Part shown: positions 41,064 to 53,464 of the stretch, piece by piece | Numbering within the stretch: position 1 is the stretch's first letter | Layout: every line of letters starts with the position of its first letter | From: Vagococcus carniphilus | GTDB lineage: Bacteria; Bacillota; Bacilli; Lactobacillales; Vagococcaceae | Direction of reading: 5' to 3' | DNA: 64,000 nt | Assembly: GCF_014397115.1 (NCBI RefSeq) | Contig: NZ_CP060720.1 | Coordinates: forward strand, 388,001-452,000 | The notes under the pieces: model-generated | Told to the model about the DNA's origin: nothing | Seen by the model: the letters and a program-made list of their open reading frames with translations, nothing else | Databases searched by the model: none | Position numbers and translations under genes: made by a program

Positions 41064-41083
41064 TTTAGTGTAAAACAAAAAAA

Positions 41084-41205
41084 CAGAGTAGAAAATAAAG
41101 CGTCAAGTGCCAATGGGATGGGATGTTGCCTATTGGACGAAAAGTGCTAATGGAGCACTTGCGACATTATTTTTGCATTCGCTGCATAATGGATGTAGCA
41201 ACTCT
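41084..41205 (+). promoter_or_regulatory. Tetrahydrofolate (THF) riboswitch
   Basis: The leader of folT contains the THF aptamer cores in order: AGAGTAG, GCGTCAAGTG, GGGATG (near 41115), ACGAA (41137-41141), a variable stem AAGTGCTaatggAGCACTT (41142-41160), GCG and TTGCATTCGCT. AGAGT (41085-41089) can close with ACTCT (41201-41205). A hairpin GCTGCAT/ATGTAGC (41181-41199) follows the core. The ribosome site AAGGAGAT lies just downstream, which suggests translational control by folate. Confidence 0.82.
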
Positions 41206-48641: not shown

Positions 48642-48749
48642 ATGAAATTGAAAGGTGTTGTCATTGTTGAAAGTAAAAGGACTATCATTAATGCTTTTAT
48701 CTTCTATAGTAGCTGTAGCAGCTACACCAGTAGTGTCTTTAGCTGCTGA
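48642..48749 (+). other. Short upstream frame overlapping the start of the 3D-domain gene
   Basis: An ATG at 48642 with AAGGACGG just upstream opens a 35-codon frame (MKLKGVVIVES...) that overlaps the signal-peptide region of the 3D-domain gene in another frame. It is either a leader peptide, or the true start of that gene separated from it by a one-base frameshift between 48645 and 48663. Confidence 0.35.
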
Positions 48750-49773
48750 TAGTAAAGAAGAATCTGTGAAAAAAGAAAGCATCGAAATTAGTAGTAAGAT
48801 AGACAAAGCACTTGATTCGGTTAACACGAAATATCAAGAAGTGGAGTCACTTAAATCAGAGGTTGCTGAGACTGAAGGAACTATTAAAGAAACACAAAAT
48901 AAAATTCAAGAAACAGAAAAAAGTATTGCTAAAAGAACTGAGTTAATGGGAGACCGCATGAAGAGCATGCAAGAAAATAGTTCTTCAATGAACTTGATGG
49001 ATGCTCTATTAACAGCTGACAATATGTCAGATTTCTTTAATCGTGCTTATGCTGTTACAGTACTTCAAGGAGCTGAAAAATCAAAAGTTGATTCTTTAGC
49101 TAATGATAAAGATAAATTAGATGAATTAAAAGTATCTTTGGAAGATAGTAAATCATCATTATCTGAAAAACAAACAGCGATGGAAACAGAAGCAAGCTCA
49201 TTAGAAAAGAACGTAGCTTCATTAAAAGAAGAGTTAAGTGATAATCAAGCAGTACTTGAAAAATTATCAAAAGATCGTATTGCTAAAGAAGCTCAAGCTA
49301 AAAAAGCAGCAGTAGAGGAAGCAAATAGAAAAGAATTGGATGCTAAGATTCAAGAAAAAGAATCTAAAAAAGCAGATGAAACAAAAAATGAAGCACCAAT
49401 TACATCTACTTCTAAAGTATCACAACCAGTTAAAGAAGAAGTAGTGGAAGAAGAACAACCAACTCCAGCACCAACTGAAACATCATCAGGTTCTCAAGTG
49501 TTACAAATGGAAGCTACAGGCTATTCATATACACAACCTGGTTTATCAAACTTTACAGCAACAGGTATTGATTTACGTGAAAACTCACGTGTTATTGCTG
49601 TAGATCCAAGCGTTATACCTTTAGGGTCTGTTGTAGAAGTTTCAGGATATGGTTATGCTGTAGCCGGAGACACTGGTGGAGCTATCATTGGTAATCGTAT
49701 TGATTTACATTTCAATACAGTTGCAGAATGTACACAATGGGGACGTAGAAGCGTTACCGTAACAGTTAAATAA
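48664..49773 (+). CDS. Secreted coiled-coil protein with C-terminal 3D domain (cell-wall hydrolase-like)
   Basis: The protein has about 369 residues. Residues 1 to about 30 form a signal peptide (basic start, then LSLMLLSSIVAVAATPVVSLAA). An N-terminal coiled coil of about 190 residues resembles PcsB/SagA-like secreted proteins. A Glu/Pro/Thr-rich linker follows, then a 3D domain from about 285 (GYSYTQPGLSNFTATGIDL; VIPLGSVVEVSGYG; GDTGGAIIGNRIDLHF), whose three Asp match MltA-like lytic enzymes. No ATG is in frame; TTG 48664 behind AAAGGTG is the best start. Confidence 0.85.
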   Translation: MLKVKGLSLMLLSSIVAVAATPVVSLAADSKEESVKKESIEISSKIDKALDSVNTKYQEVESLKSEVAETEGTIKETQNKIQETEKSIAKRTELMGDRMKSMQENSSSMNLMDALLTADNMSDFFNRAYAVTVLQGAEKSKVDSLANDKDKLDELKVSLEDSKSSLSEKQTAMETEASSLEKNVASLKEELSDNQAVLEKLSKDRIAKEAQAKKAAVEEANRKELDAKIQEKESKKADETKNEAPITSTSKVSQPVKEEVVEEEQPTPAPTETSSGSQVLQMEATGYSYTQPGLSNFTATGIDLRENSRVIAVDPSVIPLGSVVEVSGYGYAVAGDTGGAIIGNRIDLHFNTVAECTQWGRRSVTVTVK

Positions 49774-49823: not shown

Positions 49824-49860
49824 TAAAAAAACTAGACTCGTTCATTTGAACTCGTCTAGT
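49824..49860 (-). terminator. Terminator of the M-box transcript
   Basis: On the reverse strand ACTAGACGAGTTC pairs with GAACGAGTCTAGT (49848-49860 and 49831-49843; two internal mismatches), followed by T7. It overlaps the stop codon of the microprotein. Confidence 0.8.
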
Positions 49861-50000
49861 TAAGGGCGTGTTAATGGTTTTATATTGCTAAAAACGGTGG
49901 GATCTGGTTCGTCTAACTCAACAGTAGTAGCTGTGATTTCAGTCATGTTATGTCCAACAATATGTGCCGCAATAACAAAAGATGCTAAAATAATAGTCAT
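49860..50000 (-). CDS. 46-aa membrane microprotein under M-box control
   Basis: The ATG at 50000 has a consensus AAGGAGGT 8 bp upstream. The protein starts MTIILASFVIAAHIVGHN, a single membrane helix (about residues 1-17), then a 28-residue polar, acidic tail (VELDEPDPTVFSN) ending in Arg-Pro. No family was recognised. It is the only gene between an M-box riboswitch and a terminator, so its expression should rise when Mg2+ is low. It may act on a Mg2+ transporter, as small proteins MgtS and MgtR do in enterobacteria; this is analogy only. Confidence 0.72.
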   Translation of the reverse strand: MTIILASFVIAAHIVGHNMTEITATTVELDEPDPTVFSNIKPLTRP

Positions 50001-50019
50001 ACTAATCCACCTCCTTAAA

Positions 50020-50053
50020 TAAAAAAACTTCTTGCTAAAAATAGGCAAGAAGT
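50020..50053 (-). terminator. Riboswitch-controlled terminator in the M-box leader
   Basis: On the reverse strand ACTTCTTGC pairs with GCAAGAAGT (50045-50053 and 50027-50035), followed by seven T (50020-50026). It lies between the M-box and the ribosome site of the microprotein, the usual place for Mg2+-dependent termination. Confidence 0.85.
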
Positions 50054-50089
50054 AACAGTCTAATAAATTTGAAACAATGATTAGAATGT

Positions 50090-50240
50090 TGAGCTTTAGC
50101 ACTATACAACGTAAAGATAAATCTTAGCTATTTTGAGAAAAGCCTTGTGTTCGACAGTTCTTGTCCTACCCATTGGTGTCTCTCGACATTTTTGGGCAAT
50201 AGCCTATGTTTGTATAGGAGCCTCACCTAACAATATTTAA
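50090..50240 (-). promoter_or_regulatory. M-box (ykoK) Mg2+ riboswitch
   Basis: Read on the reverse strand the RNA has the M-box cores in order: GTTAGGTGAGGCTCCTATAC, AGGCTATTGCCC, GTCGAGAGAC followed by CCAATGGGT, and TAGTGCTAAAGCTC (50091-50104). These match the ykoK leader consensus very closely. A terminator follows. It senses cytoplasmic Mg2+ and normally turns genes off when Mg2+ is plentiful. Confidence 0.93.
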
Positions 50241-50252
50241 TTAACGTACATA

Positions 50253-50281
50253 AAGTTAACATGTTTTTTTTGATGTGTCAA
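50253..50281 (-). promoter_or_regulatory. Promoter of the M-box transcript
   Basis: On the reverse strand a consensus TTGACA (50276-50281), a 17-bp spacer and TAACTT (50253-50258). The -35 overlaps the end of the YibE/F gene, so this is an independent transcription unit. Confidence 0.75.
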
Positions 50282-51030
50282 CTTTTTTGAATAATAGAGC
50301 GAGTAATAAGAAGAGTTGAGATAGGAATGGTTAAAATAATTGCTATTCCACTTAAGAGTAAATTACTCCATTCTATTACTAAAATTTTAGTATTTAATAA
50401 CTGATGGAAAGAATAGTTTAGATCACTAACCCAAACAAATAATGCTAATTGCCCGCCGACTAAAGCAAAGATTAAAGTGTTCATCGTAGAACCTAAGACA
50501 TCTTTTCCAATAACAATACCAGAGTGAATCAATTCTCTTTTGGTTAGAGTAGGTGAGTTTCGTTTTAATTCATAAATGGCAGAAGTAATAGAAATAGCAA
50601 TGTCATTGATTGCCCCTACAACACTCATAACCATAACGGAGGTACTTAAAGAAACAAAAGAGATGCCAATATTTAAAGAATACATATCCATCTCCATTAA
50701 CTCCTCGCTTGGGAGACCTTGAAGGTGCATAAGTTTAACAGATGACAAAATAAGTAACATCATAATGATTAAGACAATTAAACTACTAAGAAAAGCAGTA
50801 ATTGTTTTAGCGTGATAACCGTTAATAAAGAATAAATTCATTGCGGTGATGGCAATGCTCGTTATAAGTGTAAGTAATATACTAGAAAATCCCCAATTAA
50901 TTAAAATTAACATGATAAACATAAATAATAGATTGAAGAATAGGGCACACAAAGCTAGACGACCTTTGCTTTTACCAATATAGCTCATCAAAAAAGCTAG
51001 AATTAAAAATAAAATAAAATTAACGCTCAT
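50278..51030 (-). CDS. YibE/F-family membrane protein (short subunit)
   Basis: The 250-residue protein has about seven hydrophobic helices and the YibE/F motif block MSVVGAINDIAISITSAIYEL followed by FSIGKDVLGSTMNTLIFA-like residues (SGIVIGKDVLGSTMNTLIFA). The family is of unknown function, sometimes found near phosphate or metal stress genes. It overlaps the longer YibE/F gene by 11 bp, and the pair is divergent from a TetR gene. Confidence 0.85.
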   Translation of the reverse strand: MSVNFILFLILAFLMSYIGKSKGRLALCALFFNLLFMFIMLILINWGFSSILLTLITSIAITAMNLFFINGYHAKTITAFLSSLIVLIIMMLLILSSVKLMHLQGLPSEELMEMDMYSLNIGISFVSLSTSVMVMSVVGAINDIAISITSAIYELKRNSPTLTKRELIHSGIVIGKDVLGSTMNTLIFALVGGQLALFVWVSDLNYSFHQLLNTKILVIEWSNLLLSGIAIILTIPISTLLITRSIIQKS

Positions 51031-52129
51031 TTAAAGCACCTCGTCTCAAGAAAAAGGTAGTTAATTTGATAGATAAAGGGATGGTTAAAACAATGCCAAT
51101 ACTACCGACTAGAGCTCTAGCAACTTCTAAAGATAAAACAATTGAAAAGGCATAATTAAAGGACATATTATTTCTTAGAAAGATAAGAATAAGCGGAATC
51201 GCACCACTTAGGTAAGAAAAAAACATAATATTTATCATTGGTCCCATAATATCTTCTCCAATTTTTTTACCAGTTTCTGTTATTTCTTCTTTTGTGACGT
51301 TAGGTTTAGTCTGTGTTAACTCATAAAGAGAAGAAATAATGGTCATAGAAACATCCATAACAGCTCCGACACAACCAATGAGTAAACTACTTAGAAATAA
51401 AATATGTGGTGGTCTGGTAACTAATTCCATCTCTTCATAGCGAAGCCCCTTATGAGCTAATAACTCAATAACTAAAAAGCCAATAAGAAAAGTGACTGCA
51501 CTGCCAATTACCGTAGAAGTAATCGCTATTTTTGTTTTTTTATTCCATCCATTAGCAACAGTCAAAGTAAGCGTAACAATCAAAGGAATGCCAGCAATAA
51601 AAAGAAGTAATAGCAAATGGCTATTGATTTGTTTGTACCACCAGAACAAAAGGCAAAGTATAGCGCCGTTAAGAATAAAACTGAAAAAAGTCAATATTCC
51701 GGATAAATCATATATTAATATTAGTAGAAACAAGAGTAAACTAACTAGAATAATTAAAAAATGGTCACGTTTTAACTCTAAAAGGGTACCGAAAAGTTCT
51801 TTTCCTTGATGAGAGACATCGATGTAAACATACTCATTTTTATGATAGTGGTGGTCCTTGATTTGAGAGTAACTATAAGTGTTGGTGATAGTTACTTCTT
51901 TTCCTTTATATTTGTGGTTCAAAATGAGTAGCTTAACTTGTTGAGTGGTTAGTTTATCTGTATTCCCATGTTCATCAACTTGTTTCTCAGAATGAACCGT
52001 TTTTTCTTCCATTACTTTCCCAACAGTTTGTTCTTGATGACTAAATTGAAAAGTTCCGAAAATAGCTATGATTGTGAAAAGTAATAAAAGGAATAAACTG
52101 ATTTTTTTTGTTTTTGTCATTGAAAGCAT
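51020..52129 (-). CDS. YibE/F-family membrane protein (long subunit)
   Basis: The 369-residue protein has an N-terminal helix (about 8-27), an extracytoplasmic domain of about 85 residues with an OB-like pattern (VTITNTYSYSQIKDHHYHKNEY), and then about seven helices with the family motif GAVMDVSMTIISSLYELTQ and IGEDIMGPMINIMFFSYL. Together with the next gene it forms a pair as in many enterococci. Function unknown. It starts 124 bp from the divergent TetR gene. Confidence 0.85.
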   Translation of the reverse strand: MLSMTKTKKISLFLLLLFTIIAIFGTFQFSHQEQTVGKVMEEKTVHSEKQVDEHGNTDKLTTQQVKLLILNHKYKGKEVTITNTYSYSQIKDHHYHKNEYVYIDVSHQGKELFGTLLELKRDHFLIILVSLLLFLLILIYDLSGILTFFSFILNGAILCLLFWWYKQINSHLLLLLFIAGIPLIVTLTLTVANGWNKKTKIAITSTVIGSAVTFLIGFLVIELLAHKGLRYEEMELVTRPPHILFLSSLLIGCVGAVMDVSMTIISSLYELTQTKPNVTKEEITETGKKIGEDIMGPMINIMFFSYLSGAIPLILIFLRNNMSFNYAFSIVLSLEVARALVGSIGIVLTIPLSIKLTTFFLRRGALNER

Positions 52130-53276: not shown

Positions 53277-53304
53277 ATTTCACGAAGACATTTAAATACC
53301 GGTA

Positions 53305-53397
53305 CCATCACAAAGGGGAGCTTTAGCTGAGATTGAGTAAAATTATTCTAAACCCTAGAACCTGAAATTGTTAGGACAAGCGTAGGAATTGTGATGG
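53305..53397 (+). promoter_or_regulatory. TPP riboswitch
   Basis: P1 is CCATCACAA (53305-53313) with TTGTGATGG (53389-53397). The core motifs GGGGAGC, GCTGAGA (53326-53332), ACCC, GAACCTGA and GCGTAGGAA appear in the conserved order. It precedes thiT, so thiamine pyrophosphate should repress the gene. Confidence 0.95.
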
Positions 53398-53464
53398 AGT
53401 AAAATAAAACAAGTTTACTCCTCTTTGGTTGTGTGGTCGGTTGACAATACAAGTGAAGGGGAGT
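53396..53464 (+). promoter_or_regulatory. Expression platform of the thiT riboswitch (ribosome-site sequestration)
   Basis: GGAGTAAA (53396-53403) can pair perfectly with TTTACTCC (53414-53421), sharing GG with the P1 3' strand. If P1 forms, ACTCCTC (53417-53423) is free to pair with the ribosome site GGGGAGT (53458-53464; one G-U). The two hairpins exclude each other, so TPP binding should block translation. Confidence 0.7.

Follow-up and report, generated by a model that had tools for sequence, protein, structure and literature searches.

The unit described here is encoded on the minus strand. The window, i.e. the whole stretch of Vagococcus carniphilus DNA that was analyzed, spans 64 kb (64,000 nucleotides). 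In the direction of transcription, it comprises a promoter, an M-box riboswitch, a platform terminator, a Shine-Dalgarno (SD) sequence, a 46-codon ORF, and a second terminator (Table 1). The promoter and both terminators were identified by eye and by folding. The M-box had been said to serve the small ORF only, and this held: past the second terminator, the sole gene is a convergent one, and a check for a larger gene read from the same leader found none in sense ahead of it. Elsewhere in the window, on the plus strand, we observed THF and TPP riboswitches (41082-41186 and 53304-53405, respectively), each located before a multi-helix membrane-like ORF that by eye resembles an ECF-type substrate protein.

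Table 1. Features of the M-box/microprotein locus and its neighbours, in window coordinates.
Feature	Position	Strand	Basis and remarks
-35 hexamer TTGACA	50276..50281	-	By eye; overlaps the yibF stop codon (50280-50278)
Extended -10 TGT-TAACTT	50253..50261	-	By eye; 17 nt from -35; weak
M-box (Mg2+) riboswitch aptamer, RF00380	50073..50241	-	cmscan, 146.9 bits
Platform terminator, hairpin and U-tract, between aptamer and gene	50021..50053	-	By eye, folding; stem 50053-50045 / 50035-50027, U-tract reaching 50021
Shine-Dalgarno AAGGAGG	50010..50016	-	9 nt before ATG 50000
46-codon microprotein gene and TAA	49860..50000	-	ORF; five further genomes have homologues
Codons 2-23, predicted single helix	49932..49997	-	AF2 without alignment
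Codons 13-21, invariant H13, H17, E21 (HxxxHxxxE) with G16, N18, T20	49938..49964	-	Six-sequence alignment
Codons 30-35, DEPDPT, acidic/proline tail; P32, P34, T35 invariant	49896..49913	-	Alignment
Second terminator, hairpin and U-tract, transcript end	49824..49860	-	By eye, folding; hairpin 49860-49831, U-tract to about 49825
YibF-type membrane protein (PF07907), upstream neighbour	50278..51030	-	Profile E 5.6e-63
YibE-type membrane protein (PF07907)	51020..52129	-	Profile E 1.1e-58
3D-domain / PcsB coiled-coil cell-wall protein, convergent; boundary of the unit	48655..49773	+	Profile match

The sequence-only reading had named a clear M-box, a terminator platform before the gene, a single gene of 46 codons preceded by an ideal ribosome site, and a second terminator behind it. 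We recovered all of these, and the ribosome site is a strong one. The aptamer matched the RF00380 covariance model over its full length (1-169 of 169, E 2.4e-33), far above the gathering score of 44. With this high-scoring aptamer and its terminator platform the leader resembles the known M-box (ykoK) class, and it differs from the usual members in that the only gene served is the 46-codon ORF. The description of the promoter as a consensus one was overstated. The -35 hexamer is perfect, whereas the -10 hexamer TAACTT agrees with the consensus at 3/6 positions (counted by hand), accompanied by an extended TGn element. The relatives carry TGT-TAAAAT at 16 nt, and the overlap of the -35 with the yibF stop codon is readable in all five of them. 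A simple promoter/terminator scan listed neither the promoter of the unit nor either of its minus-strand terminators, probably because of its limits on the -10, loop, and stem. Terminator-like hairpins were predicted 5′ and 3′ of the ORF in 6/6 units, with hairpin sequences in our genome unlike those of the relatives, and GGAGGTGGAT and its spacing to the ATG were identical in all six. A chance arrangement is unlikely, given that five other genomes carry the complete unit.

In truncated leaders lacking the 3′ arm of the platform terminator, the 5′ arm paired with the 5′ strand of the aptamer in all six folds, which were run without a shuffle control. In the five relatives the arm contacted aptamer bases 11-16. 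In our sequence it contacted bases 16-21, and there the antiterminator is weak, with three of six pairs being G-U by our reading of the fold. The predicted pairing fits the switching between two folds that an off-switch should show, and it is weaker in our sequence.

Homologues of the 46-codon ORF have the same length in all six carriers, counted from the ATG nine bases after GGAGG. An alternative 48-residue start in the relatives was considered less likely, as it lies only three bases from GGAGG. Among the five close relatives, dN was below dS in 10/10 pairs (ratios about 0.12-0.53), and variable sites were distributed 12/4/18 over codon positions 1/2/3. As length, place, and motifs are shared by six genomes and dN is below dS, we take the ORF to be a protein gene; at the sequence level, it looks like a real gene under purifying selection on the protein. 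Identity between our protein and its homologues in the relatives is 40-42%, and 16 columns of the six-sequence alignment are invariant (M1, I3, A6, A12, H13, I14, G16, H17, N18, T20, E21, I22, L29, P32, P34, T35). H13, H17, and E21 are spaced four residues apart, which would place them on one face of the helix. The tail of our protein contains EPDP at residues 31-34, where the five relatives have DPHP.

The single helix proposed earlier was also obtained with AF2 run without an alignment, at residues 2-23. The confidence was modest, with a mean pLDDT of 67.7 from a single sequence, block values of 79 and 76 for residues 1-20, and about 60 in the tail. In all six proteins, the best 15-residue hydropathy window covers residues 1-15. 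The N-terminal helix is likely to lie in the membrane, judging from these predictions; insertion is not certain because only about 15 residues form the hydrophobic stretch and positively charged residues are missing around it.

Searches of Pfam, NCBIfam, and PHROGs returned no family above chance level for the microprotein (best E 0.049 and 0.085). The segments AHIVGHNATEI and DPHPTL are reminiscent of the C-terminal domain of dihydrolipoamide dehydrogenase-type enzymes, and a weak match to a glutathione reductase was seen (E 0.87). Against a Pyr_redox_dim (PF02852) profile built from 30 Vagococcus domains, the six microproteins scored 3.0-7.7 bits over about 20 residues. In the control, 4/2000 shuffles of the G007 protein beat its 6.7 bits (top 8.7), i.e. 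the score is somewhat above random. We rejected this origin, as the family was picked post hoc among thousands.

A protein search found the homologue in 6/14 Vagococcus genomes, our own included, and a profile search returned the same six, among them Vagococcus bubulae. Each of the six sits directly behind an M-box. The gene is dispensable in the genus, since eight of the 14 genomes lack it. No homologue was present in 15 other genomes of the family. The search of the order (395 genomes) gave weak matches (E 0.0044-0.096) at 17 places in 15 genomes outside the genus. All 17 were inspected and judged chance-like, and no M-box motif was present in any of these loci. Five fall within a single reading frame that encodes a large protein (a P-type ATPase by eye). 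Three, all in genome G101, lie on the strand opposite a repeated ORF, and the others are parts of larger, short, or interrupted frames. At class level (E <= 0.001), 4/398 genomes matched, all of them Vagococcus. A contig set of 84,980 species, scanned with a single short motif as the query, yielded 43 pattern matches with one confirmed relative, V. bubulae. No homologue was found in the plasmids or phages searched, and of eight matching stretches in viral contigs none was confirmed. The gene was thus detected in one genus only, and these searches found no convincing homologue outside Vagococcus. A literature search, with most subscription journals outside its reach, found nothing on the Vagococcus unit.

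The unit directly follows yibF in all six carriers, and the gene beyond it differs between them. YibE/F matches were also present in 7/8 non-carriers, in two of which (G006, G011) a frame of the pair is broken. The region behind the second YibE/F match was read in all seven (in G011, from the first stop onward) and contained no unit. In one non-carrier, G002, yibF and the 3D-domain gene flank the site as they do in our genome, and by eye nothing but a terminator-like stretch separates them. In a YibF tree, our genome stood apart from a clade of five carrier species, with non-carriers between; the tree is unrooted and was built from one protein and 12 sequences, two of them partial, with outgroups not recovered. 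As the two carrier lineages are apart on this tree, the unit is probably old. The simplest history that the sequences suggest would be an old unit at the yibF site that was lost several times.

Our genome contains three M-boxes. Besides that of the unit, one precedes an MgtA-type P-ATPase (N-terminal domain by Pfam) and one an 868-residue ORF, a P-ATPase by eye. For a survey of leaders, we used 155 loci among the matches listed in M-box searches of 60 and 395 genomes. These gave 131 leaders distinct over 140 aptamer bases, 17 repeats, and nine loci without the motif, which were dropped (L048, L049, L050, L057, L065, L184, L189, L199, L214). In 126 of these 131 leaders, an ORF of 90 codons or longer begins on the same strand at +150 to +1000, and the five without a larger ORF all belong to the microprotein family. 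The sixth family member, G009, has an aptamer identical to that of G007. The number of lone-ORF leaders is at least five, because spurious long ORFs could hide more. That Mg2+ transporters are the normal targets of M-boxes is broadly correct; in related genomes these riboswitches also precede MgtC, LCP, FtsW/RodA, and acetyltransferase genes. M-boxes before LCP (LytR_cpsA_psr) and/or FtsW/RodA-type cell-wall genes were seen in related genera at L035, L037, L038, and L040 (L037 by eye). An acetyltransferase-like gene follows the M-box at L044, L048, L050, L051, L056, and L070 (by eye; Pfam for L051), and in our own genome (L070) it lies between the M-box and mgtA. We also observed tandem M-boxes about 335 bases apart before one P-ATPase-like gene (L024/L039, G023). 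The literature searched held no paper on 'M-box riboswitch' with Enterococcus.

In many leaders of the order, short ORFs starting with MDDS, MEDS, or similar were present between the M-box and the next gene, mostly a P-ATPase by eye. Examples are L070 2984-3082 (our genome, behind the M-box of the MgtA-type gene), L144, L165, L168, and L182, among others. Under a fixed rule (an SD, M[DE][DE], 10-50 codons, region +170 to +620), 29/131 leaders among the matches listed had such an ORF, against a mean of 0.25 (maximum 1) in 20 rounds of dinucleotide shuffling and 0 on the reverse strand. The L070 copy lies outside this region and is not counted in the 29. A looser rule, run with no control, gave 54/131 among the matches listed. 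At least two of the 29, L044 and L051, precede acetyltransferase genes. As reported in PMC11282234, early acidic codons make MgtL drop ribosomes in low Mg2+. The analogy suggests that the MDDS-type ORFs may be MgtL-style ribosome-destabilizing leaders behind an M-box, i.e. two Mg2+ sensors in series. We found no paper joining M-box, leader peptide, and MgtA in the literature searched.

A different ORF of 33-42 residues with one helix (in our genome MPELVIFLLFIGVGC...) directly precedes mgtA at L070 3145-3264, L006, L007, L008, and L018. This separate form occurs in four Vagococcus genomes, our own included, and in six Vagococcus genomes (L012, L017, L019, L020, L021, L033) a helix of this kind continues in frame into the N-terminus of the pump. 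It is possible that the helix before mgtA is a pump subunit. The MgtA-type gene of our genome (L070 3230-5892) has a frame that breaks after about 118 codons and continues in another; that of the relatives is unbroken as far as fetched. The break is either an assembly error or a sign of a pseudogene.

In our model, the M-box would fold at high Mg2+, its P1 helix would keep the 5′ strand, and the platform terminator would form. Once Mg2+ drops, the freed 5′ strand would pair with the 5′ arm of the terminator and RNA polymerase would read on, with the 46-residue protein as the sole product. This protein would have an N-terminal helix, probably in the membrane, with the HxxxHxxxE stripe near the helix end, followed by a flexible acidic, proline-bearing tail. 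It would most likely bind a membrane transporter and, under Mg2+ shortage, change how stable or active that transporter is, in the way MgtS acts on MgtA in E. coli. The locus would then be a stand-alone Mg2+ off-switch gene for a membrane microprotein that probably tunes a transporter, a reading to which we give an even chance. We infer the switch logic and the membrane location; the binding partner and the effect are our guess by analogy. Tuning of a transporter is proposed because MgtS (31 aa) binds and stabilizes MgtA, and the same source adds that how stable MgtA is depends on small proteins of fewer than 50 aa (PMC10925321). The leading candidates for the partner are the M-box-controlled P-type ATPases and the adjacent YibE/F, between which our data do not choose. 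CorA (14/14 genus genomes) and MgtE (13/14) do not track the microprotein gene. The fused MgtA N-terminus showed no clear link either, as it is found in the five close carriers but also in G008, and our genome has the separate form.

The nearest published case that we found is the pe20 M-box of M. tuberculosis. This M-box is reported to control Rv1805A (PMC12810186), a small ORF without an assigned role that is conserved within its genus and restricted to it. Rv1805A heads the pe20 operon and is subject to translational and Rho-dependent control. Compared by description, both systems have an M-box directly controlling a conserved genus-restricted small ORF; in contrast to Rv1805A, the Vagococcus ORF stands alone behind an intrinsic terminator, with another terminator directly 3′. 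M-box control of a small ORF as such had been published before. Also by description only, the protein resembles MgtS as a short, predicted one-helix protein tied to low Mg2+ (a tie that we infer here), and differs from it in its M-box and longer acidic tail. It likewise resembles MgrB, a PhoQ inhibitor of 47 aa that sits in the membrane and belongs to the PhoQ/PhoP regulon (PMC8404706), in size, probable membrane location, and presumed link to Mg2+, and differs in being under riboswitch control.

Other readings of the unit have to be weighed. The microprotein may work with YibE/F and not with a Mg2+ pump, as a third component or inhibitor induced by low Mg2+. The position right behind yibF, with the -35 on its stop codon, in 6/6 carriers, and its recurrence in our genome and in the distant five-species clade argue for this, yet adjacency can be inherited without function, seven of eight non-carriers retain a YibE/F match without the unit, and no paper treating YibE together with YibF was found in the literature searched, so we regard it as rather unlikely. 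Less probable, and in our view a long shot, is that the HxxxHxxxE helix would hold a transition metal where it meets the edge of the membrane. The protein, made only once Mg2+ runs out, would in that case gate YibE/F or an M-box P-type ATPase and so protect the cell from mis-metallation. It is very unlikely that the ORF is itself a Mg2+-sensing, MgtL-like leader peptide, with EPDPT/DPHPT as the segment that would cause ribosomes to dissociate when Mg2+ is low. Our protein does share the destabilizing EPDP of MgtL (PMC11282234), and the enrichment of short M[DE][DE] ORFs behind M-boxes of the order (29/131 leaders among the matches listed vs 0.25 in shuffles) shows that such ORFs are found in these leaders. 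However, the ORF is followed in all six units by a terminator and then by convergent or distant genes, leaving no gene to control, and selection is seen over the ORF. Moreover, the motif is late (residues 30-35) and is replaced by DPHP in the five relatives, and the EttA-dependent effect, according to the same source, needs acidic residues within the first 30, whereas here they are at 30-33.

Type I toxins have a short hydrophobic helix and a charged tail. The microprotein has that look, and a small membrane toxin-like peptide of the type I toxin-antitoxin style under Mg2+ control was considered. Pairing of the SD with the 3′ end was predicted in all six full mRNA folds. For four relatives the duplex energy was -11.6, a value beaten by only 1/42 other genes of the window (-12.0); that of our own sequence (-8.4) was beaten by five. 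Against dinucleotide-shuffled 3′ regions, however, the pairing is not unusual: of 500 shuffles, 286 were as good or better for our genome, 240 for G003, 101 for G004, 73 for G007, 87 for G009, and 90 for G012. The fold-back of the SD on the 3′-UTR was consequently not counted as shown. With no family match and no antisense promoter established, we hold the toxin reading to be highly improbable. The lowest probability goes to a small RNA made in low Mg2+ as the functional product, with the ORF incidental; a short monocistronic RNA between terminators would suit it, and purifying selection on the protein, the constant length, and the strong SD argue against it. Antisense action on the convergent gene was rejected as well, since a terminator precedes that gene and the gene beyond the unit varies among carriers. 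According to PMC9943018, 27 M-boxes are antisense-acting versus 828 in sense.

We return to the reading of a stand-alone, Mg2+-controlled gene for a membrane microprotein. Low-Mg2+ microproteins are known mainly from PhoPQ-controlled genes of enterobacteria, and the Vagococcus unit would add a Gram-positive, riboswitch-driven case to these few. We must also note that the MDDS-type leaders may matter as much as the microprotein unit itself. If the HxxxHxxxE stripe did bind metal, the riboswitch of this unit would have a metal-reading microprotein of the membrane as its one and only output. With one switch, one gene, and natural presence or absence in related species, as in G002, which keeps the flanks without the unit, the effect of the microprotein is directly testable, and the unit may offer a handle on the uncharacterized YibE/F family.
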